Shown: positions 9,641-62,626 of the stretch, one piece after another
How positions within the stretch are numbered: the first letter of the stretch is position 1
Layout: every line of letters starts with the position of its first letter
Origin: Tetracentron sinense
Lineage: Eukaryota > Streptophyta > Magnoliopsida > Trochodendrales > Trochodendraceae
Direction: 5' to 3'
Assembly: GCA_015143295.1 (NCBI GenBank)
Contig: CM026564.1
Coordinates: 9,846,416-9,910,415, forward strand
Length of the DNA: 64,000 bases
Translations under genes and position numbers: made by a program
Notes under the pieces: model-generated
Database searches by the model: none
What the model saw: only the letters and a program-made list of their open reading frames with translations
Told to the model about the DNA's origin: nothing

Positions 9641-9659
9641 ATTACCCGAGATAGGCTGA

Positions 9660-15472: not shown

Positions 15473-18043
15473 ATGGCAGTGGGAGGCGAACATTGTGTGG
15501 GCGAGGAGGCGGAAATGATAGAAAGTTCTTCCGGAAAAGAGTTAGTTGTGTATGAAGGAGATGAAAATATAGAGCCATATAAGGGTATGGAGTTTGAATC
15601 TGAAGAGGCTGCCAAGGTATACTATGATATGTATGCCACGCGCATAGGCTTCATCATGCGTGTTGATGCATTCCGCCGTTCATTGCGCGATGGAAGTGTC
15701 ATTTGTCGTCGACTTGTATGTAATAAGGAGGGTTTTCGCAAAGCCAAACCCAAAACGAGTGAAAGCAGGAAGGTTCGAGCGATCACACGAGAAGGTTGTA
15801 AGGCAATGCTTATGGTAAAGAGAGAGAAGACAGGGAAATGGATGGTGTCGAAATTTATAAAGGAGCATAATCATCCATTGGTGGTTTCCTCGGGTAACAG
15901 TCGCCGGAGTTTGCTTCTATCTTACACACCGGTTAGTTCTTTATAGTTGAACATTGTTTTGAAAATGAATAGCTTTCTTCATAAGTATTGTTATTTAGTA
16001 TTTCTATATGCTATTCTTATTTGCATTTATCAATCATTCAAAGCAGTGATAGGATTCTTCCTATTTTCCATATTGTAACTTTTGATGGGCAATGCATTTC
16101 ATTTCGTTCAAAATTAAGTGACTTATGTGGCCTATAATCTATATATTTAAATTCTAAACTATAATCCTATTATGGCGTGTAGAGATGGTGAATATCACTT
16201 ATCTCTGCCAAAACCTGAAGTTACAATTAGTTGTTTTCATAGATTGTATCCATGGTCTTAAAAATTGCTAAAGCCATTACATTACGGTTTCGACAAAAAC
16301 CGAACCGTTCCGTTACCCGAAATATAAACAGTGTTACGTTAAATAAAGATAGCCATTTTCAATAAAACTAACCCTCGTTTTTAGTTTAAATGACCATTAA
16401 AATAGTATTTTTTTTAAAGAGACGTTTTTAGAATAAACGAATCATTTATACTAAAAATGGTATTTTTTAAAAAGGAAAATTAAAAAAACAAAACGGGGGT
16501 CCGTATTTTTTTTTTGCTATAAATGACCATAAGTTGTGTCGTTTATAGTAAAAATGACACAAAAAATAAAAAAAGGGACGGGTCGTAATGGCCATTACAC
16601 AACAGTTCTGACAGGTTCCGTTACGAACGCCGAATAGTTATTTTAAACCTTGATTGTACCTATTGATTATTAACAAGTCAGTTTTGCTAAAAGGTCTGCT
16701 ATGCATATTGGTATGGAATCAGGATTATTGGATGAAATTACTCAATGTATTTGTCTTAAGAAGGTAAGACTCCCCTGTGAAGTGGTGCATTGTGAAATTT
16801 AATAGTTCTCATTTGGTAAGTGCATCACACTAATCAACTCATATTTAGATACTCTAATTTTCTAAAAGTAACATCCTAGAGTGGGAGGGAGGGAGGGAGG
16901 GAGAGAGAGAGAGAGAGAAAGAGAGAGAGCTTTACCCCTAAAGGGAAACTTAGAACGCGTGGCATTCATAGTAAATAAAAAAGAATATCTTCCAATGCCA
17001 AATAGGTTAACCTTATCTAGTGAAAAAAACTTCAGCATTATATTTTGGAATATCAATATTGCCAAAAAAAAAAACAAGAATAGTCCTAAATATCATAAAA
17101 CCAATTGGAAAAGCATTTGCATCTTTATTGCTTTCTCTGTAAATGTGATCAAATGAGAAATTTTGTGGGAATTCAGTCATTCCAATATTCCCAACTCGAC
17201 TAAAGCATAGCATATAAACAATCAAAAAATGAATATGAAATATACTAGACAAGAGTATATGAACTATAGGATTCTAAGAACCATATTGGCTGTTTGAGAA
17301 AGTATGTGTAGAGTCGTAGAATAGAGAAATATAATTAGATTTGTGTAAACTTTATTTAGAGCCTAAATCATATATCCATAAAAATAATGTAGGATAAAAT
17401 TGGAAAAGTAGTCACCGACTGATCGGTGCGGCAGTTAGGCATCCTTAGACGAAAGAGTAGTCTTTCAGGATTGTTCGTTGTGTGTCACCACCTCCCACCT
17501 ATCCTACACACATTCGATCAAGGTTTTCATTGCGAAGCTATAGTCAAGGTGCACAAAATGATTGAGAAGAAGCAAGCTCGAAGTCATCATATGTTTCTAA
17601 CAAACATATGCTTTCATTCCTAAACCCTAAAATACAGTAATCTATTTGGATAATAACATATTTTAATTTAAGTCTTCCTTTTCGTTTTATTTTGGAGTGA
17701 TGAACATGTATGGGAGATACTTTCCTTTTCATTATGCAGTTGTGGTCTTGGGAGAGGATCTGATTCTAACAATCATATGTGTTCATTCCTAGACTCTACA
17801 TTACAATAATCTATTTCAACAAAAACATTCTAGAGTTGTCCCTTAAAATCATTGCAGAAAATAGTCAACGTTTTAAAACGTGAAGGCGTAAGGCGAGGTG
17901 TTTGGACCTCAAGATGCATGAGGTGTAAGCCTCAAGGTGTAAGGCTTTAGCCTCACAAGAAAGCCTAATGCTCTCTCATTTTAATAAATAACTAAAATAT
18001 AAAAAATGCTAATTACTCAAAAAGTTAATGAAAGATTATAGTA

Positions 18044-18078
<35 letters not shown>

Positions 18079-21000
18079 TATAGAGAGAGAGATATTTAAT
18101 CATACATATATTTGTATTCGTGTACATTGTGTGTGGGCGCTCACGCGTGTACATATTGGAAATACTATATAAATTATTAACTATCACAAAAATAAATATA
18201 AGGGCAAACAAATGTTTGAATGTAGATTTACTTCTTTGTTCATATACATATTGAAGATGATATTCAATCATCAATTTATATGGTGGATTTAGAATTTTAG
18301 TATAAATTTACAATAAGTCATTAACTATATTGTAGGCCAATGACTTCAAAGTTTGCAATGCCTAGTAGGAAAATTATCGTGAATTAGACTTAAAAGAGTT
18401 TTAAAAGTCTAAATACGTTAAACATAATAAATTAAGGTGGCGTTTGGTAACACTAATCTAAATAGGTAGAGCTTATTTGAAAATTGTGCGTAGTTAAACT
18501 TTAGATTGTTAAGTTGAAGGTTAATTGCATGTCTACATCTTTTTGAAGTAGGGGTTTTACCTCTTAAGTAAAAAGTAGCTAAGAGCTACTTTTTAAAGTA
18601 GAGGTTTTCACCTTTAAAATCTCCACTTCGAATTGATGTAGACATGCAATTAATCTTCAACTTAACAATCTGAAGTTCAACTAAGCATAATTTTCAAATA
18701 AGCTCTACCTATTCAGATTAGTTTTACCAAACGCCACCTAAGTGTTGGTTGAAAATAATATCAATCAATAAAGTAGAACTCCAACCATTCTCCTTATGGA
18801 AACTGCTTGCCATTGGGATCAGCCAGTTGCCCTTTCATTTTGCTTCGGCAATAGATCAAAATAGAGGCAACAAAGCCACCCTATTTAGATCCCTGGATCG
18901 CGTTATTCGATTAGCGGACGCCACAAGACAAATTTCATCATTTTCAATGTGTTATCTGTAATAATCAAATAAATAAAGTGTTATTTGTTATTAGTTAAAA
19001 CGAATTATAACTTTAAAAATCGACATTTAAGTCTCAATTATGTTGCTAGAACTCTAATTTTAGATAATGTATGAGGCGTATGCCATAGACATAAAGTGAG
19101 CCTCATAGTGAGTGTTCCTTATGTGAGCCTCATACTTTGAGGCGTGAGCCTCATGGGATTTAAACCTCATGGTTGAGGCTCAAGGCATTTTCCTTAAGCC
19201 TCTCCTCAAGTAAAGCCTCGAGGCGTAAGCTTCACAGACCTCTTAAAACACTGATTTGAGAAAGTATGGGTAGAGTCATAGAATAAGAGAAATATAATTA
19301 GATTTTTGGAGACTTTCTTTAGAGCCTAAATATAAAAATAATATAGGATAGAATTGGAAAAGAAGTTACCAACTGATCGGTTCGGCAATCAGGCATCCTT
19401 AGACGAAAGAGTGGTCATTCAGGAATGTTCTTTGTGTGTCACCACCTCCCACCTATCTTATTCATTCGATCAAGGTTGTCATTGCGAAGCTATAGTCAAG
19501 GTGCACAAAATGATTGATAAGAAGCAAGCTCGAATTTTCATCTTATGTTTCTAACAAATAACAATCATATGCTTTCACTCCTAAACCCTCAAATGCAGTA
19601 AACGATTTCAATAATAGCATGTTTTAATTTGAGCCTTCCTTTTTTTTTTAATTCTGCAGTGATTAACATGTATCTTATTCTAACAATCATATGTGTTCAT
19701 TCCTAGACTCTACATTACAATAATCTATTTGAACCAAAATATTCCAGAGTTGTCCCTCAAATTCATTGCAGAAAATAAAATATTAGTGTAAAAATAAATA
19801 AAAATTAGGTTCATGTGAACGTCATACATTCTTATGCAAATCCTGGCTAAACCCTACTTCAAAAGCTTTTCAAATTTGATCACCTAAGAGGAATAAGAAT
19901 ATTAAGACAAAGAAAAAAATTAGGTCTTAATAGAGGAAAAACCTAGATGAAAGAGAGAGAGAGAGAGAGGCGGAGAAGATACTTATTGGCCGTCGACAGA
20001 GTATTGTCGCTGGAATACTAAATGGCGTCTACTCTGTGAAGGTGTCGTTGGATGAGTTATGGGCATAGGAGAGAGGAGAAGAGAGGAGAGAAAGAAAGAA
20101 AGAGAGCTTGAGTCATTTTTTTTTTGTCGGGTCTCCTCGTAATTAAAAAGTCTTAAGGCCATGAGACCTTAATTATAAGACCTTTTGGTGGGTGTTGAAA
20201 GGCTGCCTTTTTACATCATTTAAGTGACACGACTCACGGGGTTTGCAAGTGCCGGGATTTTTTTTACCAAAAGAACTACATTAAAATATGTAGTTCCCTG
20301 GAAATTGGAAGCCCCGCCACCAATTCACGTGAAAAGACAGGGCATTAGAGCTAGCATCTTTGGTAGCCCAACCTTACATCAAATTTATAATTATCCTTTA
20401 GAGAGACCCACTCAGACGTAAAATAGAATCATGTAAGATCTATATACTTCTCGCATTCTTACAAGAGCTTATGACCATGTGTATGGGTGCAATCTTAATA
20501 GCATCTTACAAAAGAAGGGTTTTAGTGTTAGGTTGGGATATGGACTAAGAGATGCATTGAAGTGTTTTTATTCCGCATTCCTTGTGAGAAGACCATAAAC
20601 GATTTTCTCAACTTTTTAACAGGATTGGGACAAAGAATTCTGCATTGCTCTTTTCTTGTCAGGAAAGGATTAATAGGTTATTGGAGTAAGCAGTGGAGCT
20701 TCATCTCCTCAGGCTTTAAAGTAGGAAACTATGATGATTTCTCATAATAGAAACTGAAATCCTAGAGGAAAGAGAAAAAGAGAAAAAATGGAGAGAAAAG
20801 ATTAGGGGGCTGTTCCTGTTTGTGTTATTTGTATCACTTTTATCCTCAAGATATGATACATTGTATCTACTCCCGTAAAAATAATATATCTCAACACTCC
20901 TCCCTCAAGCTGTACATAGATATCTATATCATACCTAACTTGTTAAGAACAAATTTTAAGTTTGCTTTGGCAAGACCTTTAGTATGTATATCAACAAGTT

Positions 21001-24000
21001 GATTTTTTGTTGTAACAAACTAGTAAACAAAAAATTTGAGAAATAGCCTGCCCTCAGATGAAGTGCTTGTTGACCTCTATGTGTTTAGTGTGATCATGCT
21101 GAACCGGATTTTGAGCAATTTTGATGGTTGTCTTGTTGTCATAGAACAACTTCATTGGAACACCTATTTTGATTTCCAAATTACGTAATAATATTTTCAA
21201 CCACAACAATTCTGCCATACCATGGGCCATTACCCTATATTTGCCTTTTGCACTAGACTTAGCCACCACACTTTACTTCTTACTCCAAGTTATGAGATTA
21301 CCCAAGGTTTTGAATGTCGATATTGCTCGACATGTCGAGCCGGAGAAAAAAATATATCGGAGATATATTGAAAGATATATCGTTTATCGGTATTTTTAGA
21401 AAAATGACAAAAAAAGGGGCAAAACATGGAATTTTGTAGTGAAACTTCAGGAAATGTTATAATAGATGTTAATATACCTTTTATAATAAAATATTAAGAA
21501 AAACAATAATATACATAAGAGATGCAATTAGAAGAGAGTAAAGATGTGCGCTAACGAGTGATGATAATGTATGATTGATTTATGTTTCATTCATTTCTCA
21601 ATCAATCATAAATTCATAATTTATAAGATTCATATAATACAAACCTACACAATACAACCCACCAAAAGAACTACAATCACCACCAAAAGGAGTTATGCGG
21701 AGGTTCGAAGTCATCATCTCTGTCCTGACTAGGCTGGCTATAGTACTGGTTCTTCACATATGTACAAAACTGTGTCCAACTCATCACATTATGGTACATA
21801 GAGGTGTATACTCATGTACAAAACGTTGGTAGTAATGTGGGCTAAGATGTAGTAACATGCCCATCAGTGGATACTATGGGTGATGAGGCATAACTGCCAC
21901 CGGCACTGGGATTTGGAATGCGTGACATATGGAGGTGGTTCATACCCTGAGACATATCCATATGGATATTGGGCCTCTGGTTGTCAATTGTCGTAGCTAT
22001 GTTCTTGAGAGCCCGATGCCTGAGACTGTGCATCCTAGTCATGGTTTGAGGACCGTGTACATTGAGACCCTCTAGAACTAGAGTCTGAATGTTCCATGGC
22101 CTCAAACCAAGCATCGTGTTCCTTGCCCCTGCCCCTGCCCCTGCCTCTGCCCTTGCCCTTGCCCTTGCCCTTGCCCTTGCCCTATCGACAAGAGATGTAA
22201 TATCTCGGTTGGCTTGTTGCTGGATGTGAAGTTGGGGCACCATGATCTTGTCCTGTGTAGAATGGTCGAAGCCAGCCTTTATGGTGAATGGGCTCAGATG
22301 CCTTTGGCTCTCATTTGGTCTAACTCTGACGTTGCCTCCATCCCCAGGATTGTCACCGCTTCCGCTGCTCTCATCATGGTCATCACCACCTTCACTATTA
22401 CTATCAGACAATCTACTTGTCCCAGTGGTTGTTGTACCTAAAGTCCCAGGACCTTTTGGATTTCTCATCATCTCATTAAATGATTTTGCGTTGGAGCTGT
22501 TCCTACTGGTGCTAGATCCCACTTTTGTAGCAATAACCCTTTCCACATCGGGCCTATCTCAGCGGCAGCGCTAGCTATAGTTGCGTTTGGATGCCCATCA
22601 TTTTCATTAAGGGATGAAGCCTTAACCCACTCAGAAAGTGGGTTATCTTGATCATCAGTGGCACCGATTAACATTAGGTCTAAAGGATCCCGCTCAAGTT
22701 GCCTCCCAGTGTCAATTTGCAGTTGCTTGAGTTGTAACTTCATATTATAGTGACAGAAGACTAGTTTTTGTAGCCAAGTAAAGGATCCCGCTCAAGTTGC
22801 CTCCCAGTGTCAATTTGCAGTTGTTTGAGTTGTAACTTCATATTATAGTGACAGAAGATTGGTTTTTGTAGCCAAGTCGGTTCCGTTGCTTTGGGTAGAT
22901 GAGGGCAAATGTACTCCAATTCCACTCACATGCTGAAGAAGAAGCAGTCTGTGCTAACACGCGAGCCGCCAACTTTTTGAGGTTTGGACAGTCGGTTCCG
23001 TACATTTTCCACCAATCAATTGACAATTAAACATTATTATCCATTAGTTTCATAGATATTTTGATGCAGAGAAATAAACTATAGTTACTTTATTGTGTAG
23101 AAATTACTCATCCGGCGTTATCCTAGACTTTGCCTCTTTAGTAGAAGCTCGTCCAAAGCTCCCTCTCGTATCCCTGAAGCGCACTAGCTATAGATTTTGA
23201 GAAAACATGTTCCAATTAGATAGAATATATTAGAATGCAATAATGCACATAAATATGCTATAGTTAATGAGAGAAAGCCATCTCACCTCATTCCCGAAGT
23301 CTCCTTTTTGCTTGCACTTCGGGTCCAACCTTTCGAAGATGTCGTGAACGACCTTCACTAAGTCATCCCGATTCCCCAATTGGTGATTATAGTGGTACAT
23401 TAGGTTCAAATAATATGCTGAAATGTGAAAGTTATACGATATGCAATTATATCAACGGGGCAATAACATTTAATGTAAACATCTAATAAACATCAAACTT
23501 ACCAACAACATGAAGGGGATGCTCCAATGTCCTATCTTAACAGGCATCGATAATCTTGTGGACCCACTTGCTTCCACAAGGGCACACATTCTTTATCGAC
23601 GCCTTCATTACCTGTATTAATTCGTACACAGAACCCATAGTCGGCCATTTATCTATATCTATTACCCTTAATACATGGTAAATAGACTCCCTTAATACAC
23701 GGTAAAAGGCTCTAGTATGGCAACCATCTCATCCACTTTATCCCAAAATGTGTTAAAGATAATGTTCTCAACTTTCTTTGCCAAAACAGTGCGCTTGTGT
23801 GCATACTCCGCCCAATCATTCCCAGTGAACAATGCCTTTAGTCCAATTTTAGGTTTCGACAGACTCTCCAGACAATGTAATTGGTGGTGAAGCGTGGCGC
23901 CCCTGGCCGTACTATTTCACCACCATAGAAGGCCCTCATCTTCGTTAGAACTCAATTGTGGTTGTATGTGAAGTTGGTTATTGTCCTTACTTCTTCAATA

Positions 24001-48000: not shown

Positions 48001-51000
48001 CCCATCAACTTAACTATGTTATCATCATCTCTTACAAGATCGACCATGTGGCTGTGACTGAGGTATCTCAAGTATCAAACTGTCTTTCAGTAAAAGTTAA
48101 TATATGGCGAGCTTTTCCTCCTTTCGAAGAGTCTCCATGTTTTGTCTTACAACAAGCTAGATATCAGGATCCTCCTCATCTAAAGAGATGAACTACCTCT
48201 GCTGTCACATGGATAGAAGAGAAACTTCAGGATTTCTTTTTCATCTCAAAAATTTCTATTACAGCTTCCTGTAAATCAGTTTCTTCATCAACTTCCTGGA
48301 AAATATGATTATCCTCATTTGAGGTGATGGAGTCCATTCGTGTTGTCCCCTTAGATACAGATATTTCTTGTTACCGTTTCTTGCATGTTTGTCGGTAAAT
48401 GTTCCATCATCAACCTCCTTAGGGACGTGTAGGCATGTCTTAACATCCTTTCCCATATGAACCAATTGTTCCTTAAATTTAGCGATGCCTCCGTAATCAC
48501 TGGGACAATATTTGCAAATAATCTTGTGTTTGTCCCCAATCCCCATTCACCCTCTCTTCGTGCTCTCAAGCAATATTGAAAGATCCTAAGGCTTGATTTA
48601 GGACTGCAACACAATAATTAACTTAACAATGAAATAAATATGACAATGTTAAACACGAAGATTCATACTAAAAAATTTGACTAAGAAGAATCTAAGAGAC
48701 AGATTCAACTTATTAATAAAATATAATTATAAAATTAGTGTAAATTAACATAAATAATGATTACTCTCAGGTCTTTTAAAATTTATTTTCATGGGAAATT
48801 TTACAACTCTAAAATAGGAATTTTTTTGAGAAATAGTGCATTCGATATGCAGAATTTTTTACTATTTGAGGGAAAAATTATAAACTTTTTGGTAAAAACA
48901 CTATTTTTTGTTGTGTTGTTGAAACTTCAGGAAATGTTAAATTAAACATAAATACACACTTAAAAATAAAATACGAAAAGAAAATCATTGAACGTAAGAG
49001 ATGTATTTAGAATGGAGCAAAGACGCGCTAGCGATGGTGTATCATATAGGAGATAAATGTAATATACTACCGATAAAAAAAGGATGAATATAATATGCAC
49101 AAGTTGTTGAATACATCCAATACAAACTCAAATGAACAAAAGGACATATGACTACCCCATAGCAAGAGTTGCATTAGATCCATATGGAGTTGCGTGGTGG
49201 TTGAAAGTTGTCTTCTCTGTCTTGATTAGTTTGGCAATAATATTGGTTCTCCACATATGTATAATGTTGTGCCCAACTCATTAGATTATGATACCACGTC
49301 ATGTACTCACGAACTTGACGTTTGTACTCGTCATCTCCAACTTGCACCAACACTCCCTATTAGAATTATTGGCTATAATAGCCATTTGTTATGATCATTG
49401 AGATGGGATCGAAAGCCTTGGCCAGATATTATGTAATGGTAGCCATAAAGGCATCGGTTATAGGAGAATAACTTTCTATTAGATAGTGATTATTGCTATA
49501 TAAGGACATAGCATCGAAGCTAATCTATGGTTAATAGAGGCTTGTATCACTCGAATCTGGCTTAAGTTGACCATGAATCATTGGTTTACATCTACGATCG
49601 TCTCTTCTCGAAGATCCGGATCGCCGATCACTCGAATCTAGCTTAAGGGGGTCGACCATTAATCGTTGCTTTACATACACGACTACTGCCTCTTCTCGAA
49701 GATCCAGATTGCCGATCCTATGATTTTCTTACAATTGGTATCAGAGCTTTGGTTTAAGAGAGGAAGGCCCAATTTTGGCGTCTCCGGTATGGAGATAGTG
49801 TAACCCGCGAGCAACATGTAGACCTTGAGTCGTTGTTTCCATGACAAAGAAGGGAGGTTGGAGCCTTAGAGGTGGTCACGAAGAGGGCCACTGGCCATGT
49901 ACTCAGAGATTTCTAACGGGCAGGGAATGTATGATTTGGAGTCGAATTAGGGTTTGCATTATTAGTATATGGTGTTTGTGATGAATATGTAATCGTAGTC
50001 CCTAGAGAAACAAAGGCTGATCCATCAGATAGCCTTCAAAGAATCAGAAGATGATTTCGACGAAGGCCTAGTGGACTCAGAAAGAGTCAGCCAAGAGACA
50101 GCCCTCATTACAGGACCGACCCTGAAGACGCAATTTAAAGGCTTGGTCCAGGGCGGCGTTTTTGTCCCAACGTCATTTCTATTCCATTTCGAGAGCTCTC
50201 TAGCTGAGCCCTCATTGCTTGATTATCTGATGACAGAGATGAAGCCTTTCAGGGGAGCAATCAGAATAGGGGCTACTCCTAAGAAGAATTGGTCGGCGAA
50301 CGGAGATGAAGGGCTAGCTCGTGGTTCATCCCTAACAATTTCTCCCATGGCGACAACGAGAAAGGCGAGCAATCAGAATAGAGGCTACTCCTAAGAAGAA
50401 TTGGTCGGCGAACGGAGATGAAGGGCTAGCTCGTGGTTCATCCTTAACAATATTCTCCCATGGCGACAACGAATTTCTCTGAAGAAATTGAGGACTATTG
50501 AGGCCATCAATAAAGAACCAAAAGAACTGAGGGAGTGATTATTGGTAGCAAAAAATTGGAAGCTGTAGCCATTAAAATTAGGGCTCCATGATTATGGGTA
50601 GACACGAACCCAGGCCAGCAATTGAGGCTCCACGATTGCTCCAAGTGACGATTCCTTTTCTCTATCGAAGACTTGAAGTAAGATGAAGCCCGTTTATTTT
50701 ATTGGCTTGAGGTTGAAGAAAAGGGCAAGTAATGTGAGAGAAATGAATTCCATTACAGGTGTCACAGGTGTTACTATTCTGTTGGTAGAATATGGAAACG
50801 TATTGAGAGAAATCAAGTCCCACACCCAAAGACGCGTGGTTACTTTTCACAAAAAATTTAGATATTGGCTTATATAAACCACCCAAAACCAAGCTAAGCA
50901 AGCCATGAGCCACACAAGTAGACTCAATGATTGTATGCATGAATAGGAATTGACTACATTGGTTTGGATATGATGTAAATCACATACACTTGTAATGTGT

Positions 51001-54000
51001 ATTGACTTTACATTTTCTGCAATATCAGAGCCATTATAACTCTGATTTCAGATCCGTTTGAACCAGCATGCTCTTGGAGATGTGGGGAACAAAAAAAGGG
51101 ATTAGTTGCAGTTCAGAAAATCAAGTGTTGGACATAAGCATTGGTAACACTAGCAATGAATGGTCAAAATTCTAAAACCCAAACTAGATGTGTTATCGGT
51201 TAATTACTTTTGCTATTGCATGCTATGTTAGTTAGTCATATATAATTTTTTATGACTAGATGAGTACACTAGTGATAAAGTAATAGACATGAATATGAAA
51301 CTTAGTGTACAAGTAACATATTGAATAACATTGGTTTACAAGGTTAGAAAATTTATCTTTGATCCATGTTGATTAAAGATTAACAGATATGATTAGCATG
51401 TAAGCCAATAATACTGCCAATGTCGACATGTATAGAATAGTGGGAGCACAATTTCAATTATAGTATTCCCGAATTAAATTAACGTGACTATTGAATTATC
51501 CATATGAGAATGATATTGATGATGATCGATAGATTTATGCATGATGGAGGACACACATATGACAATGTGAAATAACCTCATGTTTTGGTGGCAATAGATA
51601 TTAGATATAAGTTAAAGCCTATGATATGAAATGAATAATGGTCATATGTTTGGAAGGTAAGCATGATAGACAAACCCGTATTATAGTGTGAAATTGCCTC
51701 AGGGCTTAGAAATCAAAATGCAAGCATGAAGAGCGAACCCGATAGTTTAACATGGAAAAAATCTCATGACTTGATAATAGAAGCATGATGGAAAATCGCA
51801 TGCATTGCGTTGAAAAACCTCATGGCTTGACACAAATATGATGGGTAAATCCGCTGTATAGCGTGGAAATGCCTCATATATTAAAGATTAATATGTATAC
51901 GTGCAAATGTGAAAACAAAATTTTTTTTGCGAGAACCCGCAGGTTAGCGTGAAAAAAACGAATGGCTTAGCACTTAAAAAAGTATATTGGGAGAACCCGC
52001 GAGTTAGCGTGGAAAAACTAAATGTCTTAGTGCTCAAAGAAGCATTTTGGAAGAACTCAGAGAAGCGCATTTTGGGAAAACCCGTAGAATAGCGTGGAAA
52101 AACCAAAATGACTTGAATGGTCAGAAATAATGTTGGAGAACCCATAGGTTAGTGTGGAAAAACCAAATTGCTTACTTATCAGCCCTTTTAGGGTAAGACT
52201 ATAAATATGAGTCAAGAGGAAAAGCTTGTTAGGCAAACATCACCCTACTTGATATATGAAAAGCATCATGTATTTGATGGTGTGTATGAAATAAAGGATT
52301 CAACTTATGCTTTGGGTCTCATAAAGCAGATTCTAAAGTAACCCTACAATGCCTTAATGGCAAGTGGTAAAGAGAATGTTGCGTTCTGTGAAAAGAATTA
52401 AGCATCTTTGCCTTTGCTATCAAGACAACAACATTGAGCTGCATAGATGCTGATTGGGGTGATAACTTGGACAAAATGAAAATTGATATCCGGTTATATG
52501 TTTGCCTTTAGAGAGGTATTGTAGAACAATAAGAAATAAACTTTCATCAAAGCTGGGTAACCATGCTATGGCACCGCTTGAAAAGTCATCTGGTTAAAAC
52601 ATTTTATTGATAAATTGAAGTTGGTAAAGATCGATGGATCAATGAAATTTATACCCCAATAACCGAGCCAACATTAATATGCTAATAGAAGCATAACAAT
52701 GTGTCAGAGCTGTGGTTAAAAAGGAGGATTTTATATTCTTCTAGATCCCATCGCCTGAAATGATTGTTATTAAATCATTAACCAAGAAAATGTATGTCGG
52801 ACTTGTTGATTGAATAAGGCTACGGTAAATGATATACAAAATGGCTCTTAAAGCCAAGTGGGAGTATTAGAAATTATTGGCTGTAATAGCCAGCCAAATC
52901 GTATGTAACGGTAACCATAAAGGCATCGGTTACAAGAGATTAACTCTCTATTAAAGAGTGATTATTGCTATATAAAGACAACATGAAGCTAATCTATGGT
53001 TAACAGATGCTTGTATCACTCGAATTTGGCTTAAGGGGTTCGACAATGAATCGTTGGTTTACATCTACGATTGCTTCTTCTCAAAGATCCGGATCGCCGA
53101 TCACTCGAATCTGGCTTAAAGGGGTCGACCATGAATCGTTGGTTTACATCACGATTGTCTCTTCTCGAAGCCTCGGATTGCCGATCCTATGATTTTCTTA
53201 CACTCCCATCGGTGGATACTGAGTAATAAGTTGTTGACACAATCACCCTCACATGAGGTTGTGGATATCCTTAACCATATCCACACGACTCAAATCCAAA
53301 AGCATATGCATAACTCTGGTCCTAGCTTTGACCATGACCTTGTGTATGCGCATATGACCATGGCACTAAGCCTAATTTTTGAAATTTTACAACATCTACT
53401 TAAAATAATTAAAATTGACAATTGAAAATTTTCAGCCAGTCGATAGATCGGTTGGATACCACAACATACTCAAATTTCAGCTCATTCCGAGTAATATTGA
53501 ACCAGAATCTAAAATATAGAAATGACATACCTAACTCACGGTTCCTCCTGAAAAAATGACTCCCTATGCACTGTGTATCGAGCCAAACAAGGATTAGGTT
53601 GATATTAGTAGAAAAGTAAAATCCCTAGTTTTCTATGTGAGAAGAAGAGAGAAGACTTGTTGTGGGGAAGATGATGAATAGTGATTATAGTTTCTCTATC
53701 TATCTCTTTTATATTATTATAATAGCATTAATAAGGTCATAAATACCCTTAGTAAAGTGTAGACGAGAGTATAATAATAAGTAACATAAGAAAGGATTGT
53801 GAGCTTAGTTACTTAGGTCCATTACAACACCCCCCCCTCAAGTGGGGCATAGATGTGTAACATGCCCAACTTGCCAAAAAAGATAATGATGCCGATTCGA
53901 CGCAACCTCCTTTGTGAGAGTGTCTACCAACTGCTTATTGGTCTTGACAAGCACGAAACTGATTATTCCTGAAGTCACTTTTTCCCGAATGAAATGTTTG

Positions 54001-56399
54001 TCCACATCGATATACTTGGTTCTATCGTATTGGACTGGATTGTGAGCAATACTAATAACTGCCTTATTGTTGTTAAATAGTCACATCTCAAACTGAACTG
54101 GAAAATCAAGCTTCGTCATAAGAATCTTGATCCATAACAATTCACATGCTCCATGTGTTATTGCCTTTTATTCTGCCTCTGCACTGAACCTAGCAACAAC
54201 TGCTTGTTTCTTGCTCCTTCATGTAACTAAGTTCTCGCCTGAAATTGTACAATACCTAGAGGTGGATCTTATGTATGTCATTGAGCCCGCCCAGTTAGCA
54301 TCTTTATAGCCTTCAACTTATAAATGTCAAATTGTATTTCAAAAAAAGTAGCCCATTACTAGAAGATGACTTTAGATACCTCGGTACTCTTTCAGCTGCC
54401 TCATGATGTGTCGTTCACGGTTTATGTATGAACTCACTGAATACACTAACCGAGAAAATGATAAAATTTATATGTCAAGACGAGTCAATGACAAGTAAAT
54501 CAACTTTCCAACTAATCTTTGGAACATACCAACATCCTTCAGCAGTTTTCCCCTTCATTATCAAGTTTGAGACTCCTGTTTTGAAAACATTGTCAACAAA
54601 ATCTTGAAGAATCAAAAGACAAGAAAGATGGGATGATAATGCCGTAATGGACCTGCCTTAGAAAGAGTAGAGTTGTGCTGAACAATGTACGTAAAACCAT
54701 CTGTGCATGGATGACTAGATTTTACTCACCATTTCCAACCTTTTTTGCCATCCCATTAGGATTGTCTCTTGTTTTATCAACAATCTTTGCACCCGTCACC
54801 TTCTAAACTAGTATTAATTAAAAAAAGTTCTGGTATTTATGTTTTGGTGCTTCCTCTGCCTACTTCCTCACTTGATTCCTCAAAGTCTGTCCTCATCACC
54901 CATACTGACCTCATCAATTTATTATAGTACCTGCAACATCCCATTGTGGATACAAGGATCTGCAAACTTCTCTCTTAGTAAACCACCAATAGGATTATCT
55001 GTTTATATACCCATGATAATCTCTATATGTGTGGCATTGTTGCAAATGCCAAGAAGAGACCCCAAATTTTGTTGGTACTAGTGTTTGTTTCCATCCCCTA
55101 TAGGAGGATCATCCATCCATCTATAGCCACATGTGCTGCATTTGGTCCAGCGAGGTTTGAGTGAGATGGCCTAGGGCCTAGGTAACTCAGTCCATATTTT
55201 CCCTTATTAAGGGTAAAAACGAGGTAGGCAATTGAAGTTTATATAAGTTTATTACCCCCAGCCCTTCCCTTAGCCTCTCTCTTATCTGCCCCCTCTACTT
55301 TTCCACGCTCTCTTTTTCTTTCCTCATGTTTTTCTTAATTTTGGTCCAAACCTAGAACTGGACATTTAATTTTGTTTGGGATTTTGTTGAACACTTTTTT
55401 ATGGACTCCCTTTTTTAGATTGTTCCTCAGGCCTTTATGGGGGCAAAACTGTGAATTTTTAGACTTGTAGTTGTTGATGACAATATGATGTTATAGTTGA
55501 GATCCATTTGTGTACGCCCATATCACTCTTTTTCCATGATCTTACGATCTATGTTATATTTTAGTAAATGCTCATCTATTGATATTTTATTCTTACATTC
55601 GCTTGCTTTTGTTAATGCATCGATATGGATCCCTTCTTTTATAGCATTTCATTTCATATTTATGTTTTTTCAAGAAAATATTTTTCTGCTTCAATTAAAT
55701 TAAACAATGGCCATATCCCATTTAAACAAGAGAAAAACTCAGTAAGTATTGATGGCTGCAGTTGCACTTGTCACTTGTGTAGGGGTTGGGGCTTATATAC
55801 TCAGATGTGTCCCTTCAAGAAGATATTTTGGGTGCAAATGGCCCGACTGGATTATTTTTAATTATCTGATCAATTGTAACTTTTAGATTGTTGGGAAAAT
55901 ACAAATTAAATTCGTTGGCAAGTCATTTAATCAAGGCAATGTTCATCTGCGCGATTTCCTTGGTAGGACCCGTTTAATTGGTTTGTCCCATCCTTCTAGG
56001 ATGTGTTCCATGTCATGTCTGCAGTCTGGTGTTGGCAAGGAGCATAGCTTCTTTTCATTCCCTCATTGAAGTGGTATTCTTCATAAGACTTCACATGTAT
56101 GGCATGAGTTGGGAAAACAGTTTCTTCCCCCGACACAAGTAAATCTGCATTTCTTCAATGGAAACTAACAGTTTGTGTACAATTTTCATATATTGCAGGA
56201 TGAGAAAGATAGAAAGATTCGGGAATTGTTGACTGAGTTGCACCGTGAGAGAAAGCGATCTGCAGCTTATCAAGAACAGCTAGGCATGGTTGTGAAAGAC
56301 ATTGAAGAACACACTCAACACCTGTCAAGAAACATCGAAGACATAGTTCAGAATGTGAGAGACATTGAATCTAAGAGGCCAGTCCTTCCACAAAGCTGA
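15473..56399 (+). CDS. FAR1-related sequence (FRS) short-type protein, two coding exons
   Basis: Coding exon 1 (15473-15931) gives 153 residues and coding exon 2 (56199-56399) gives 66, for 219 in all. The FAR1 DNA-binding domain spans about residues 45-137 with a WRKY-GCM1-type zinc set at C83, C109, H132 and H134 (GC...KW...EHNHP). Exon 1 ends YTP and exon 2 opens [10 protein letters not shown], a phase-0 join between a GTTAGT donor and a TATTGCAG acceptor. The combined TPDEKD run matches what I recall of short Arabidopsis FAR1-family proteins such as At3g59470. Residues 154-205 form a charged coiled coil. FAR1 proteins derive from MULE transposases; the short members keep only the DNA-binding part and probably act as nuclear regulators. 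The 40 kb intron is the odd feature. The start codon is the first in frame and is followed by an acidic N-terminus. Confidence 0.87.
16251..16651. mobile_element. MULE-type MITE (401 bp)
   Basis: The ends CATGGTCTTAAAAATTGCTA and (complement) AAGGTTTAAAATAACTATTC are imperfect inverted repeats, and CCATTACA/CCGTTACG-like words recur beneath each end. The 9 bp flanks GATTGTATC (16242-16250) and GATTGTACC (16652-16660) differ at one base, as expected of a Mutator-type target duplication. Confidence 0.75.
16661..17292. repeat. Intron DNA with a GGGA/GA microsatellite
   Basis: A (GGGA)n then (GA)n run occupies about 16881-16930. The rest is AT-rich and shows no recognisable gene or element. Confidence 0.6.
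17293..17863 (+). repeat. Direct duplication, copy 1 (571 bp)
   Basis: It runs from TTTGAGAAAGTATG to GCAGAAAATA and matches 19255-19777 along its length, including the block GAAGCTATAGTCAAGGTGCAC (split here: GAAGCTATAG then TCAAGGTGCAC). Copy 1 is longer by small indels. The two copies flank the TIR element at 17867-19254. Confidence 0.8.
17867..19254. mobile_element. TIR element of the GAGGCGTAAGGC family, with a nested MITE
   Basis: The left end (AACGTTTTAAAACGTGAAGGC) and right end (GCTTCACAGACCTCTTAAAACACT, described in two parts) are inverted. Both subterminal zones are full of GAGGC/GCCTC words. The element at 25256-25730 is a second copy with 9 bp flanks, suggesting Mutator-type chemistry. 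This copy has no matching target duplication but sits exactly between two halves of a direct duplication. It contains a Tourist-like MITE and no coding capacity. Confidence 0.7.
18436..18738. mobile_element. Tourist-like (PIF/Harbinger) MITE, 303 bp
   Basis: The ends GGTGGCGTTTGGTAA and TTACCAAACGCCACC are perfect inverted repeats, and nearly the whole unit folds into one long hairpin. A 3 bp TAA flanks both sides (18433-18435 and 18739-18741), as expected for Tourist-like MITEs. Confidence 0.85.
19255..19777 (+). repeat. Direct duplication, copy 2 (523 bp)
   Basis: It matches 17293-17863 from TTTGAGAAAGTATG to GCAGAAAATA. It begins one base after the TIR element ends. Confidence 0.8.
19778..20744. 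other. Unassigned intron DNA
   Basis: Contains GA microsatellites near 19950-19970 and 20070-20105 and otherwise AT-rich sequence. No supported gene. It could be old intron or the outer part of an unrecognised element. Confidence 0.5.
20745..20910 (-). repeat. 3' LTR start and polypurine tract of the copia element
   Basis: On the minus strand GCTTGAGGGAGGAG (20910-20897) is followed by TGTTGAGATATATT at 20896, the usual copia order of polypurine tract then LTR. The far LTR edge near 20745 is uncertain. Confidence 0.6.
20950..21300 (-). pseudogene. Copia RNase H, C-terminal piece
   Basis: [47 protein letters not shown] and [14 protein letters not shown] are hallmark copia RNase H blocks. The upstream part lies beyond the hAT insertion at 24620-24860. 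Confidence 0.88.
21842..22743 (-). pseudogene. hAT transposase C-terminal tail, low complexity
   Basis: Two overlapping frames (22743-22468 and 22546-21842) hold [23 protein letters not shown] and then a serine/glycine/aspartate-rich stretch with an Arg-Ala dipeptide run. The run comes from a hexanucleotide repeat (GCCCTT/GCCCCT) at about 22126-22186. It is part of the hAT element, not a separate host gene. Confidence 0.7.
22681..22878. repeat. About 98 bp tandem duplication inside the hAT element
   Basis: The block starting AAAGGATCCCGCTCAAGTTG near 22682 repeats from near 22780 to about 22878 with only a few changes. It duplicates part of the hAT coding tail and looks fairly recent. Confidence 0.8.
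22838..23026 (-). pseudogene. hAT dimerisation domain
   Basis: The peptide has [22 protein letters not shown], then [17 protein letters not shown] and KQRNRLGY. This is the hAT C-terminal dimerisation region (the usual motif is SSACERNWS; here W replaces R). It is followed in another frame by the tail at 22743-22468. Confidence 0.85.
23952..24518 (-). pseudogene. hAT transposase, DUF659 region
   Basis: A 188-residue open frame contains [51 protein letters not shown] and [18 protein letters not shown]. These are the DUF659 core motifs of plant hAT transposases, including the TDNG aspartate of the catalytic core and the CAAHCIDL block. Translation also continues weakly upstream to about 24600 in another frame. 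The domain here looks well preserved, but the gene as a whole is not, because the N-terminal BED finger is missing and the downstream part is scattered over frames. Confidence 0.85.
24600..24860 (-). pseudogene. Copia connection/RNase H, N-terminal piece
   Basis: [22 protein letters not shown] and GYCTSL-type blocks match the region between copia reverse transcriptase and RNase H. It ends at the hAT insertion. Confidence 0.82.
25010..26390 (-). pseudogene. Copia reverse transcriptase in two pieces
   Basis: The N-terminal piece (26390-25740) shows [53 protein letters not shown] and [10 protein letters not shown]. The second piece (25255-25010) shows [12 protein letters not shown] and [12 protein letters not shown], which contains the catalytic YVDD-like box. 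A 475 bp TIR element lies between them. Confidence 0.85.
25256..25730. mobile_element. TIR element of the GAGGCGTAAGGC family (475 bp)
   Basis: The ends AATGTTTTAAAACATG and (complement) TAGTGTTTTAAAAAGC are inverted. Subterminal words such as GAGGCGTAAGCCTC match the element at 17867-19254. Flanking 9 bp copies GCCAGGAGC (25247-25255) and GATAGGAGC (25731-25739) differ at two bases and interrupt a copia reverse transcriptase, which fixes the ends. A 9 bp target suggests a Mutator-type origin. Confidence 0.78.
26393..27274. mobile_element. TIR element with CCGGTTCG-rich ends (about 880 bp)
   Basis: TCACTGTTTTCAGAATCGGACC at the left is an imperfect inverse of the right end (complement TCAATGTTGTCAAAACCAGACC). 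GGACCGG and CCGGTTCGACCGG words crowd both ends. The centre (about 26500-27100) is ordinary sequence with repeated GTAGCAGCTGTCCAA words near 26670-26745. It lies between copia reverse transcriptase and linker. The target duplication (CCGGCT against CTGGCT) is degraded. No coding capacity is supported. Confidence 0.6.
27276..27430 (-). pseudogene. Copia integrase-RT linker piece
   Basis: A minus-strand frame reads [23 protein letters not shown], which resembles the linker before copia reverse transcriptase. It is short and the call rests mainly on its position. Confidence 0.55.
27431..27692. other. AT-rich remnant between copia linker and TIR element
   Basis: Decayed sequence in which copia integrase would be expected. 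No integrase motif could be recognised. Confidence 0.4.
27701..28720. mobile_element. TIR element with GATACGTATCG-rich ends (1020 bp)
   Basis: The left end CATGGTTTAAAATTTTGATA and right end (complement CATGGTTCAAAATATCAGTA) are inverted repeats. Subterminal words CCGATACG/CGATACGTATCC repeat at both sides. The 8 bp flanks CTATTGAA (27693-27700) and CTAATGAA (28721-28728) differ at one base. The AT-rich interior shares a segment with 33130-33310. No transposase is present. Confidence 0.75.
28860..29340 (-). pseudogene. Copia protease and gag zinc knuckle
   Basis: Minus-strand reading gives [14 protein letters not shown] at 28935-28880, the copia protease active-site block. [11 protein letters not shown]-like CCHC knuckle lies near 29260-29225. 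The stretch is heavily decayed. Confidence 0.72.
29930..30892. mobile_element. TIR element with CGAGTTGACTCG-type ends, nested in the solo LTR
   Basis: TTAGTGTTTTAAACCTGAAAAC at the left is an imperfect inverse of the right end (complement AGTATTAAAACTCGACGAGT). Both ends have GACTCG/CGAGTT words. No clean target duplication was found. The centre contains a block of different composition at 30135-30755. Confidence 0.55.
30135..30755. other. Block of unlike composition, possible organelle-derived insert
   Basis: About 620 bp lacks the AT-rich runs of its surroundings and is more GC-rich, with words such as CACGGGATAGCGGAAAAGC and GAAAGGCGGGTCTTCC. The texture resembles plant mitochondrial spacer DNA, but no organelle gene was recognised in either strand. 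Just before it, at about 30080-30131, lies a 50 bp stretch that is a near copy of 31331-31383 in the surrounding LTR. Confidence 0.35.
31824..32193. repeat. 185 bp tandem duplication in the solo LTR
   Basis: Two adjacent units (31824-32008 and 32009-32193), each beginning AGATGTTATTAGGTTAGAAC, match closely. Confidence 0.85.
32590..33125 (-). pseudogene. Copia gag (UBN2-type) fragment
   Basis: Minus-strand blocks include [44 protein letters not shown] and [20 protein letters not shown], followed by LWEELDHYQ. These match the copia gag domain known as UBN2. It is the 5'-most recognisable part of the copia element, and its downstream continuation lies beyond the solo LTR. Confidence 0.82.
33130..33310. 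mobile_element. Fragment related to the interior of the TIR element at 27701
   Basis: AAATTTCATAAATTCTATCA and GTCTCATATTTTAATC blocks match 28150-28290 in the same order. Only an interior piece is present. Confidence 0.6.
33350..34020 (+). mobile_element. hAT fragment, 3' part, opposite orientation
   Basis: The complement of 21360-21900 matches here: CATAGTATCCACCGATGG, TACATGAGTATACAC, CATAATGTGATGAG and the final TTTACTATATCG-poor AT zone. It therefore carries the tail and 3' untranslated part of the same hAT family, coding strand plus. The body of the transposase is missing. Confidence 0.7.
34021..36340. other. Unassigned intron DNA
   Basis: Mostly AT-rich, without recognised elements. 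At 35033-35335 two adjacent short frames read [26 protein letters not shown] and then [25 protein letters not shown] (each given in part). They look like eroded protein-coding sequence but match no family I recognise. The rest may be old intron. Confidence 0.45.
36345..36875. repeat. Tandem duplication (about 252 and 280 bp units)
   Basis: Units begin ATAGTTTAAAATATCGG at 36342 and 36595. Both contain GGTAAGTCCAATATAGGAAA, CAAATCCAAACTTATTTC and GAGTTTCTACTATT in order. The second unit is longer by small indels. The start word resembles ends of ATATCGG-type TIR elements, so this may be a duplicated element end. Confidence 0.8.
37022..37706 (-). repeat. 3' LTR of the Tat element
   Basis: The plus-strand edges are TGTAACTGGG and CATCAACA. 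It matches 47326-48010 over all 685 bp. The adjacent TTAGCCCCCTGTCTG (37707-37721) is, on the minus strand, the polypurine tract. Confidence 0.92.
37707..37721 (-). promoter_or_regulatory. Polypurine tract of the Tat element
   Basis: The minus strand reads CAGACAGGGGGCTAA directly before the LTR start TGTTGATGGG. It would prime plus-strand DNA synthesis. Confidence 0.8.
38147..39838 (+). CDS. Plant mobile domain (PMD) protein, antisense gene carried by the Tat element
   Basis: A 563-residue open frame lies on the strand opposite to gag-pol. Recognisable PMD features are [30 protein letters not shown] (given in part: [19 protein letters not shown]), [54 protein letters not shown] and a final lysine/alanine-rich tail ([12 protein letters not shown]) that looks like a nuclear signal. 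The PMD is shared by host MAIN/MAIL-type nuclear proteins and by several TE groups. A CT-rich leader and a TATTTAT word lie upstream (37970-38080). The tail runs into a GTAAAA donor-like word near 39775, so the ORF's last residues may be intronic. Its role in the element is unknown; captured host sequence or a silencing-evasion role are guesses. Confidence 0.85.
   Translation: MHPNTSIPTDEWCLLREDPTDGTGSPPPAIGVPRFKVSRGDFLPMKPTFRSHSGPSGDWEGWIHDMLSDDEFVELLKDAGVKEAVELTSSFQIKRDQDALKQLLFWWNRSTYTFITPWGEVAPSLEDVAALLQLEIFGEHVIAAINYNDPVMMECTEALTSALKASTKKSMKRANFNDWVRYFWREQASKKKGVGTSQPSAYGAGMHSPFRREAFIAVWLSRYIFPAYPYEKIQERLFGCASRIANGTRYSLVSLFLGNLYHNLDLFHRDLVKSKGESPIEIFACASFLQMWLWERVPGYAPSPSSLVQLAINKGTPEKLFPRALRWSNVRPKKNAKLFHSLDKGFFNFRPYTQTLEGALPLDYYTPGTSFQQVDFPGHITAQDLNFFAIITYSVLVVINESPFISVSYNPSRFQRQFGLDQGVPLLSVHAYPPPAAGRMHLVSRWREYLSPALDSFLLPQADREGRYTPAMKEYWARSITYFQDFINSPSLEVLPEEPSPRLKGQKKAGKRTLKKTTVGGLKRKLVPASKKAAPPAKRSKKVKLYAFDFHFFTLLTLFHFCH
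39880..41201 (+). pseudogene. Downstream part of the antisense PMD gene
   Basis: Two coding-like regions follow on the same strand. 40055-40654 has a proline/serine-rich segment preceded by acidic sequence. 40790-41201 contains an [20 protein letters not shown] block and a heptad-rich coiled coil ([22 protein letters not shown]) with a stop at 41199-41201. The layout of PMD, then linker, then coiled coil is that of the large PMD proteins found in plant TEs. It is broken or multi-exon; which of the two cannot be decided by eye. Confidence 0.65.
41348..42829 (-). CDS. Tat integrase, long open frame
   Basis: A 493-residue frame. The zinc-binding region (about residues 145-200) shows [10 protein letters not shown] and CHQCQVQG. 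The core runs from [13 protein letters not shown] through [11 protein letters not shown] to [12 protein letters not shown], giving the D, D and E of the catalytic triad. The C-terminal part holds FNKGDLVLR and [15 protein letters not shown]. Integrase inserts the element's cDNA. The frame is uninterrupted over all three domains, but it is part of a broken pol and is treated as a fossil. Its end converges with the antisense PMD gene, about 150 bp apart. Confidence 0.9.
   Translation of the reverse strand: MKNFLHLDGTLYCRSSDGILMKCIGIEEAKRQLKEVHDKVCSQNLSVPLFRHLQRFGLYWPNMIADSSNLQRDCPRCQSLPDPIECHLVENGEDWRQPYIEYIKGGELPLNKKDVSRLQRKAQKFFLHQSELFIKGIKGTPLRCLNQQEAETVLFEVHSGECRSHQGKKLYIQLLELGYYWPTIEADSAKFVKSCHQCQVQGDPIHVPALKLQQISSPWPFHTWGLDLIGPINPPSEGNIWIIAATEYYTKWVEAVPIKRATGGAVSNFIKENIIYRFGIPNRIITDNGTPFVNNIVRELLEKYHIKHVKSTPYYPKGNGQAEATNKTLLKILKKMVEGEYKKWSQNFMTLWAYRTSPRTATRVSPYSLVYGVEATLPVEMAVPSARMILNDESKLEINGIVKAKEVEVIEERRMKAEEQGTNYQRRIAKAYDKMVRLRLFNKGDLVLRTALHVKNRTFASKFTPNWEGPYIIREAMESGYYRLEKSDGTYLT
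42835..43362 (-). pseudogene. Second (archaeal-type) RNase H of the Tat element
   Basis: A 175-residue frame starts [18 protein letters not shown] and contains [29 protein letters not shown] and [18 protein letters not shown]. These supply the D, E, D and D expected of RNase H. A second RNase H after the usual one is the mark of the Tat lineage. It matches the fragment at 32-355. Confidence 0.88.
43495..44803 (-). pseudogene. Reverse transcriptase and first RNase H of the Tat element
   Basis: The long frame (44803-43910) holds [60 protein letters not shown] and [14 protein letters not shown], the last being the catalytic YxDD box. It then runs into [17 protein letters not shown] decayed RNase H ([26 protein letters not shown]) follows to about 43495. 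Pol is broken here in a few places. Confidence 0.88.
45123..46202 (-). pseudogene. Zinc-knuckle and protease region of the Tat element
   Basis: A 359-residue frame begins with a [20 protein letters not shown] block typical of Tat gag-pol boundaries. It contains the protease segment [19 protein letters not shown] and [23 protein letters not shown]. The usual active-site triplet of the family is DPGSS. Confidence 0.82.
46379..47287 (-). CDS. Tat gag, open frame
   Basis: A 302-residue frame starts 20 bases after the primer site. The N-terminal half is glutamine-rich ([22 protein letters not shown]). The capsid-like gag region contains [56 protein letters not shown] and [37 protein letters not shown] (parts shown). 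Gag would form the virus-like particle. It reads through to the DNA-rich linker region near 46230 in another frame. Confidence 0.85.
   Translation of the reverse strand: MASTEGNTNDFSAPNQDTPNPNHGGLATELMSVMAPMLQTLQQSQTQAQAIEAQTQMLLLLQEIHGSHPRNDTHDHDTSELSYVTAADVVAILERQRQTANENFHFDSNPPYSTTILQKPYPQGYIVPTFPQYNGKDGNAREHFKRFVDALGMNASDHELRLQEFSKSLSDRAYTWYSDLVPNSIHSWEDMVTAFAKKNFLVEDRISFIDLSRERQKPSEGLIDYVKRFHERAFECRDLVTENSLIQTCISDMLKEFRVHLENLGITNFSRLQQATRRTSESVKSHENELGVVNLVPQRHKS
47307..47323 (-). promoter_or_regulatory. Primer-binding site, tRNA-Arg type
   Basis: The minus strand reads TGGCGACTCCACTGGGC two bases inside the 5' LTR edge. Tat/Ogre elements commonly use tRNA-Arg; the assignment is from memory of that family. 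Confidence 0.75.
47326..48010 (-). repeat. 5' LTR of the Tat element
   Basis: It matches the 3' LTR over 685 bp. TATTTATAGG at 47543-47552 and the complement of ATTTAATATAATAA near 47624 are candidate promoter words, and two close copies of AACGCCTTTGCATTTATT occur near 47636 and 47662. Confidence 0.92.
48011..48640 (-). pseudogene. hAT transposase N-terminal fragment with BED zinc finger
   Basis: Minus-strand frames read [42 protein letters not shown] (in parts: [17 protein letters not shown]). This is the BED-type finger at the start of DUF659 hAT transposases, with C-x2-C and H plus C ligands. It is cut off on the left by the Tat element. Confidence 0.75.
48740..49352 (-). mobile_element. 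hAT fragment, 3' part (continues at 53208)
   Basis: GAAACTTCAGGAAATGTTA, AAGAGATG and CACATATGTATAATGTTGTG(C) words match the 3' part of the hAT at 21360-21800 in the same orientation. It is split from 53208-53410 by the LTR element at 49358-53202. Confidence 0.72.
49358..49733 (+). repeat. 5' LTR of the non-autonomous element
   Basis: 376 bp, with an internal duplication of about 85 bp (units near 49553 and 49633, each with CACTCGAATCT and TCGAAGATCC words). Confidence 0.85.
50071..50394 (+). pseudogene. Short open frame inside the non-autonomous LTR element
   Basis: A 107-codon frame with no motif I recognise. It may be a gag remnant because it follows the primer site by about 330 bp. It overlaps a 109 bp tandem duplication. 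Confidence 0.35.
50257..50475 (+). repeat. 109 bp tandem duplication in the non-autonomous element
   Basis: The block with GGCTACTCCTAAGAAGAATT, GGAGATGAAGGGCTAGCTCG and TCCCATGGCGACAACGA is present at about 50260 and again at about 50369 with very few changes. Confidence 0.85.
51640..52180 (+). repeat. Degenerate tandem array, period roughly 60-70 bp
   Basis: Words of the form GAACCCG(C/T)AGGTTAGCGTG and GGAAAAAC(C/T)(A/T)AATG(G/T)CTTAG recur at about 51930, 51990, 52080 and 52140. Weaker versions (GTATAGCGTGGAAATGCCTCA) extend back to about 51680. Confidence 0.7.
52865..53202 (+). repeat. 3' LTR of the non-autonomous element
   Basis: 338 bp. Same ends as the 5' LTR and the same order of internal words. 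Confidence 0.85.
53208..53410 (-). mobile_element. hAT fragment, continuation of 48740-49352
   Basis: It starts CCATCGGTGGATACT, matching CCCATCAGTGGATACT at 21860 in the hAT tail, and resumes exactly at the target duplication of the LTR element. Confidence 0.72.
53637..54690 (-). mobile_element. Ty1/copia retrotransposon, 3' end, broken
   Basis: Minus strand: a connection/RNase H region (54690-53850) with [25 protein letters not shown] and DKHFIREK blocks. It is followed by the polypurine tract CACTTGAGGGGGGGG and the LTR start TGTTGTAATGG at 53829. The LTR's far end, near 53637 (plus strand TGTGAGAAGAAG), is uncertain. It is a different copy from the copia at 20745-33125. Several breaks are present. 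Confidence 0.78.
54700..56198 (+). other. Unassigned DNA at the 3' end of the giant intron
   Basis: No TE signature was found, and this is the best candidate for surviving original intron. T-rich sequence precedes the acceptor, which reads TTCATATATTGCAG at 56185-56198. A 45-codon ATG frame near 55750 is not convincing. Confidence 0.5.
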
Positions 56400-61590: not shown

Positions 61591-61676
61591 AGTACATTAT
61601 ACAATACACAACCTAAAGATAAGATTTAAAGATATGAACCAGTGGGCAGTGGGCCATGCATCCCAAAAGGGTTTTA

Positions 61677-62367: not shown

Positions 62368-62626
62368 GATTGAATCTTCTCTCCTTGATTATGTTTGTGT
62401 TTTTCTGATGAGAGACATAGAGAGAGGAAAGGTGAGACGCTTACGCTTAGCACTTTATTTTTCACCTAGAAAGAAGGAAGAAAGAAAGATATGCTTTGCT
62501 TTTGATTGCTTTCTGGGATTGATTGGAGTCGGCGTGGAGAGGAAGACAAGAGGAACCAACTGGGTTTGTTCTAAATGGGGTCGTTCTCTAACCATTAAAG
62601 CTACGACAAACGACAATATTTGATTG

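Follow-up and report, generated by a model that had tools for sequence, protein, structure and literature searches.

A 40-kb intron rich in transposable elements very probably splits a short FAR1-family gene of Tetracentron sinense and is long in other members of the family

FRF proteins carry a FAR1 domain without the MULE and SWIM domains (PMC6000157), as do FRF1-FRF4 of Arabidopsis (subgroup 6 of the FRS-FRF family). Two reviews (PMC6000157 and PMC13306707) call them truncated, and their passages on FRFs leave a terminal exon unmentioned. The full-length FHY3/FAR1 and FRS5-like genes bear the FAR1 domain at their start, and the FRS genes retain the MULE transposase and SWIM domains in precomputed Pfam assignments. 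The gene that we describe here resembles the Arabidopsis FRFs in coding for a short protein with FAR1 and neither of the other two domains, and differs from the picture in the reviews in that a C-terminal FRS exon is kept while the middle is missing, and in having a 40-kb intron. With the full-length genes it shares the FAR1 domain at the start, the terminal exon, and the acceptor residue and phase of that exon.

Introns inflated by transposable elements are already known. In grapevine, 2,697 introns of 3-100 kb were reported (PMC3058033), in Sapria himalayana 23 genes have introns of more than 100 kb (PMC10246380), and TE-inflated introns are described in gymnosperms (PMC9364684); as far as these accounts go, such introns are long, made up largely of repeats and found in functional genes, as the present one appears to be. 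The view of the initial annotation that introns of this length are rare in most angiosperms needs correction in the light of the first two reports. Introns average 283 bp in the annotation published for Tetracentron sinense itself (PMC7709256), and 2,308 bp in its sister Trochodendron (PMC6859433). Unlike the grapevine, Sapria and gymnosperm cases, however, the homologous intron is long in all 13 genes of the family that we could read, is partly older than a duplication, and lies at what would be the scar of a domain loss; the family-wide pattern and this place at a transposase scar are what is worth keeping.

The window, that is, the whole stretch of 64,000 nucleotides of contig CM026564.1 that was analysed, holds a gene of two coding exons (the C14 copy), which has a twin on the minus strand of C8:

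15473-15931, + strand: coding part of exon 1, with the FAR1 DNA-binding domain; 86% amino-acid identity to the C8 twin
15932-56198, + strand: GT-AG intron of 40,267 bp in phase 0; the twin intron has 11 collinear anchors
56199-56399, + strand: exon 2, a terminal module including the stop, coiled-coil-like by eye; 88% amino-acid identity to the C8 twin

The 459 nt of exon 1 and the 201 nt of exon 2 give an open frame of 219 residues when joined. The intron boundaries read CCG/GTTAGT ... TATATTGCAG/GATGAG (the slash marks the splice site), and in the twin CCG/GTAAGT ... TATATTGCAG/GATGAG enclose an intron of 18,738 bp between C8:39366884 and C8:39348145, so that the open frame and the near-identical boundary words of the twin bear out the phase-0 join of 15931 to 56199 with a GTTAGT donor, as first proposed. 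The proposed gap of 40,267 bp was likewise measured as such, and there are no assembly gaps at the locus (no N across the whole window). Pfam finds a sole family above its cut-off in the 219-residue protein, FAR1 (PF03101, E 1.4e-31, residues 50-137). Among 287 homologs the top one, from Nelumbo nucifera, is 80% identical across 98% of the length, and the junction is ungapped in 24 of 24 homologs aligned from the best 120. For four of the 120 homologs listed (P0016, P0022, P0039 and P0068) the entire frame lies within contigs that, at 932-1019 bp for the longest, are too short for a long intron. A search of the window for another exon-2-like or exon-1-like sequence gave none (next best E 0.66 and 0.13, respectively), which leaves no alternative last exon in the window. 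Neither a tRNA nor an Rfam match at the gathering cut-off was found in the window, nor a sequence relative of the 219-residue protein in the PDB. The observation of one gene split by a 40-kb intron is confirmed at the level of the sequence, and both the gene itself and its intron of 40,267 bp are very probably real.

The 219 residues fit the length of the family, as the initial annotation had it, but the protein itself is probably shorter, owing to a further intron upstream:

14702-15479, + strand: probable 5'UTR intron, CAA/GTAAGC ... ATGGCAG/TGGGAGG; both boundaries are kept in the C8 twin

This 5'UTR intron is likely and would include the ATG at 15473, which would then be intronic. Behind the acceptor the twin reads TGGATGG, with an ATG where many relatives start; the C14 copy reads TGGGAGG and is without it. 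Translation would probably start at the Met at 15515, giving 205 residues, and the Telopea protein P0017 starts at the matching position.

The relationship between the C14 and C8 copies rests on synteny, on Ks and on intron homology. Exon 1 has a Ks of 0.343 and exon 2 one of 0.348, near-equal values that are expected if the two exons were duplicated together, and Ka/Ks is 0.24 and 0.16, respectively (one-sided Fisher p 5e-7 and 7e-5). If synonymous sites change at 3.25e-9, the rate given for Trochodendrales (PMC7709256), a Ks of 0.344 corresponds to about 53 My, near the younger, at 59 Mya, of the two genome duplications reported for the species. The same source describes 24 chromosomes with the syntenic quartets 2/5/6/24 and 8/14/16/20, and the places of the best paralog hits fit these quartets; a neighbour gene (61659-62437) is also collinear between C14 and C8. 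In two protein trees the two copies were not placed together (forks 88/88 and 85/82), and a joint C14 and C8 clade was not rejected (AU p 0.253). Next to the gene we noted a frame of 262 residues on the minus strand (61677-62465), with no Pfam match, membrane-protein-like by eye and with two collinear stretches on C8.

How old is the intron? Eleven stretches of the C14 and C8 introns align in order, 3.2 kb in total, with identities of 66.7-75.4% and a weighted mean of 69.5%; one of them is weak (25383-25440, E 3e-4). The surviving old parts include:

15932-17203, + strand: 5' part of the old intron, with anchors 15932-16206, 16654-16889 and 16969-17203; 68.9-71.6% identity to the twin, in order
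20345-20640, + strand: old intron block; 70.5% and 70.6% identity to the twin, in order
34645-35867, + strand: mid-intron old block that matches the twin intron
55058-56198, + strand: 3' part of the old intron up to the acceptor; 69.7% and 67.6% identity to the twin

These anchors being collinear in the twin, at least 3.2 kb of the intron, spread over its full length, predates the duplication; together with the shorter gap of every pair between them, the anchors come to 16.8 kb, an upper guess for the intron at that time. The rest has mostly turned over between the twins. The 35 matches listed for the mid-intron block are one self match, three pieces of the twin intron, 30 at an inserted 173-bp repeat and one of 160 bp on C21. 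The anchors show no excess of identity that would point to constraint (69.5% vs 72.4% expected from a Ks of 0.344 without it), and on this comparison they look like survivors and not like conserved elements. The initial annotation saw the intron as filled by newer elements; younger elements are indeed present, but some of the intron was already there before the twins arose by duplication.

The repeats that we recognised in the intron are the following:

23952-24518, - strand: hAT transposase fragment, DUF659 (PF04937, E 1e-49), antisense to the gene
25018-25320 and 25712-26008, - strand: two decayed copia reverse transcriptase pieces (PF07727), antisense to the gene
27701-28720, unstranded: high-copy dispersed repeat of about 1 kb, with dozens of copies at 81-88% identity (40 scored of 12,760 first-look candidates)
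34803-34975, unstranded: dispersed repeat of 173 bp inserted in the C14 copy, where the twin has a 22-bp gap between anchors
37022-48009, - strand: Tat-like Ty3 LTR retrotransposon of 10,988 bp, with LTRs at 37022-37705 and 47326-48009, antisense to the gene
49358-53207, unstranded: older LTR-like repeat whose terminal direct repeats are about 365 bp long and 82% identical
53601-54572, unstranded: dispersed repeat of about 1 kb with genomic copies at 81-83%

They amount to about 17.0 kb, at least 42% of the intron, a lower bound that counts matched stretches only, 15.4 of the 40.3 kb having been searched as DNA against the genome and the best candidates scored. The copia and hAT elements named in the initial annotation were found again as the reverse transcriptase pieces (E 3.1e-6, below the curated cut-off, and 4e-21) and as the DUF659 fragment, a family that we take to be hAT. 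The large LTR element is confirmed as well, since it has gag, reverse transcriptase, RNase H and integrase in that order between two LTRs; the name Tat is that of the initial annotation, and we write Tat-like. It sits in a stretch of 19.2 kb that corresponds to 1.3 kb in the twin. Matching 5-bp flanks, looked for by eye as a target-site duplication, were not seen, which may reflect decay or recombination. Its LTRs are 95.6% identical (K2P 0.045). A substitution rate of 1.3e-8 comes from grasses, and with this rate the element would be 1.7 My old. The two lineage rates from PMC7709256 give an age of 7.0-8.3 My. Between the integrase and an LTR, and antisense to the element, lies a frame of 563 residues with a Plant Mobile Domain (38147-39838, + strand, E 1.5e-47). 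This domain is also found in host genes. A nested host gene was not found among 37 intron frames scanned by Pfam, a scan that covers a minority of the 126 frames of at least 55 residues outside the Tat-like element; at E <0.001 it gave just TE domains and the Plant Mobile Domain, and two further matches (E 0.021 and 0.039) fell below their cut-offs. The older LTR-like repeat has more than 20 genomic relatives at 75-85% among the matches listed, its inner part (49748-50924) being without a listed match. All three domain-bearing elements, Tat-like, hAT and copia, are antisense to the gene, a number too small to count.

The length of the intron, on which the initial annotation laid stress, is striking, but long introns recur in the other 12 genes of the family that were read, at 2.9-36.8 kb. 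Searching the genome (1.16 Gb) gave 150 matches with the protein and 31 with exon 2 as query. Of these 31, 18 were paired by eye with an exon 1 on the same strand, five lie in FHY3-like genes, four are orphans and four are weak; short FAR1-only frames without an exon 2 are outside this count. The 18 pairs of short FAR1 genes are about 2.7 to 40.3 kb apart, and both splice sites could be read in 13 of them, including the window gene and its twin (one boundary only in the other five). In these 13 homologs of the same genome, with donors picked by eye, the GT-AG boundaries, phase 0 and the position of the intron are all conserved, and the introns measure 2,942 to 40,267 bp (median 17,068). Exon 2 is cut short by an early stop in one of the 13 (C8:39385120-39373671), which is perhaps a pseudogene. 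As a control, exon matches to chaperonin (PF00118) and myosin head (PF00063) in the same genome were chained into introns. The chaperonin set, with 96 rows, gave 28 chained introns and, after dropping three on the near-duplicate contig C958 and three below 60 bp, 22 with a median of 852.5 bp; the myosin set, with 91 rows, gave 43, and 40 with a median of 103.5 bp once three below 60 bp were dropped. The 62 control introns have a median of 134 bp and two of them reach 2.9 kb, in a control that favours short introns, since neighbouring exons must be detected and some genes span 20-30 kb in which longer introns may hide. The difference in length (Mann-Whitney p 1.2e-8) is descriptive only, because the 13 FRF introns are not independent. 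From these gene models an unusually long intron looks like a trait of the family and not like a one-off. At C16:6589812-6592489, about 2.7 kb separate the donor from the exon-2 match (acceptor not read) in a gene nested among genes with 29-32 kb, and the intron therefore either grew several times or shrank.

The initial annotation assigned the gene to the FAR1 family and derived it from a transposase, which holds; more exactly, the sequence comparisons below identify it as an FRF gene, that is, an internally deleted FRS/FHY3-like gene that retains the terminal exon. No Pfam match to the MULE transposase core or to SWIM was found in the protein, and a tblastn search of the C14 and C8 introns with six FRS-type frames of the same genome gave no transposase remnant (best E 0.12). 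In a midpoint-rooted tree of proteins that did not include an Arabidopsis FRF, the window protein groups with short proteins of Nelumbo, Macadamia and Populus (support 92/97), apart from two FRS rows. In a full-length FHY3-like gene on C6, the long frame continues from GQPLST into V-S-S, as a GT donor after GQPLST would allow, and the last exon, DDKDKKIQEL, lies directly behind GTTAG; in the public protein P0121 GQPLST is joined to DDKDKKIQEL. The terminal module stands at the C-terminal end of 90 of 120 FRS proteins in a pattern search (47 of 120 with a strict pattern), and FRF exon 2 aligns with the FRS tail with an hhalign probability of 98.3% (E 2e-14, 55 ungapped columns), against E 0.0012 for the reversed control and 0.043-0.77 for five shuffles. 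The starts of the two exons coincide in residue position and in phase, and both lie behind an AG. FRF exon 2 being homologous to the FRS last exon in this way, the FRFs would be FRS genes with an internal deletion in which the last exon and, of the intron before it, at least the acceptor have been retained. This makes the description of FRFs as truncated more precise, since the middle of the FRS protein is lost and the C-terminal exon kept; we do not claim that the point is unpublished.

We are fairly confident that the locus is an intact FRF gene, with a FAR1 exon and a terminal coiled-coil-like exon, and that the one intron between them, of the ordinary GT-AG type, occupies an old position and was inflated by transposable elements. 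The gene model, the homologous boundaries, the old intron shared with the twin, the LTR insertion on one side and the long introns of the family are observed. We propose that this acceptor and the one of the last intron in full-length FHY3/FRS genes are homologous, that the transposase and SWIM core, which stood between the FAR1 domain and the last exon, disappeared in the FRF line and left the intron as the mark of the scar, and that insertions of transposons later inflated this old-position intron. The 40 kb would be transcribed and then spliced out, either at once or recursively, the elements inside would be kept silent, and the protein could compete for DNA sites with FHY3/FAR1, a role that the reviews propose for the Arabidopsis FRFs. 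A wider idea, which we put forward tentatively and to which we give somewhat less than an even chance, is that loss of the core gave birth to the FRFs and brought the last FHY3/FRS intron right after the FAR1 domain, and that in this lineage the homologous intron later turned into a position-specific sink for transposons, of great length even ahead of the last whole-genome duplication and long in all the genes read. A transposase-derived gene hosting younger elements, as noted at the outset, is supported; if the wider idea holds, a domesticated transposase family would carry a tolerated store of younger transposons in place of the lost transposase.

The pairing of the exons bears on a reading in which a single-exon FAR1 gene ends at 15946 (YTPVSSL-stop), exon 2 being an unrelated relic far away from it. 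Read on past the donor, the frame of exon 1 does meet a stop after 15 bases of intron, and four clear exon-2 matches of the 31 are without an exon 1 partner, but in the twin the two exons are paired likewise, with matching boundaries and Ks, 18 such pairs occur in the genome (both splice sites could be read in 13), and the homologs of other species are contiguous proteins; two unrelated pieces are strongly disfavoured and very improbable indeed. Less easily set aside, although still unlikely, is a recent silencing of the C14 copy, in which the insertions, especially the 11-kb LTR element, stopped productive splicing and the C8 twin alone works. The loss of the start ATG of relatives, the donor GTTAGT in place of the twin's GTAAGT, the length of 40 kb, 11 kb of it an element aged about 7-8 My, and the absence of the gene from the listed public proteins (120 of 287) would fit, as would a tree branch slightly longer than that of the twin (0.076 vs 0.052). 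In the other tree, however, the branches are nearly equal (0.06 vs 0.056), both exons are open with Ka/Ks below 0.25 in each, the in-frame Met at 15515, where Telopea P0017 starts too, remains, other family genes have introns of 29-37 kb, and the twin is likewise missing from the listed proteins. The purifying selection is averaged over about 53 My and is no proof of function after the last insertion.

Selection could instead keep the family intron long, through regulatory elements or a delay in transcription. All 13 genes read have at least 2.9 kb, against two of 62 control introns, which would agree with this; the anchors, however, are no better conserved than expected without constraint, most of the sequence between them has turned over, the C16 gene has about 2.7 kb (acceptor not read) among relatives of 29-32 kb, and length may simply be inherited. 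We consider a selected length quite improbable, and return to the intact FRF gene with a transposon-inflated intron as the preferred reading.

The 120 homologs listed of 287, all of them at most 80% identical, include neither the window gene nor its twin; this search covers lengths of about 120-383 residues. From the same collection, three FRS proteins of Tetracentron are listed. Such an absence fits a gene broken up by a long intron, and also a silent gene. We infer that annotation missed both genes through the length of their introns, which suggests that long introns may hide conserved genes from annotation. The 13 family genes, with a duplicate pair among them and the same intron at about 3 to 40 kb, form a natural series usable for testing the effect of intron length and of intronic transposons on the expression of similar genes.

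Around the gene, two related direct repeats (7198-10866 and 56755-59518, 65-78% identity) flank it on either side, which suggests an old element family on each side, and an integrase fragment lies upstream (901-1248, + strand, E 1.7e-4, below the cut-off). On C8, an orphan copy of exon 2 (C8:39314206-39314400) has a TAG stop and an altered acceptor, and there is also a second copy of the neighbour gene (a stretch matching 61659-62350); together these perhaps represent a partial segmental duplication.
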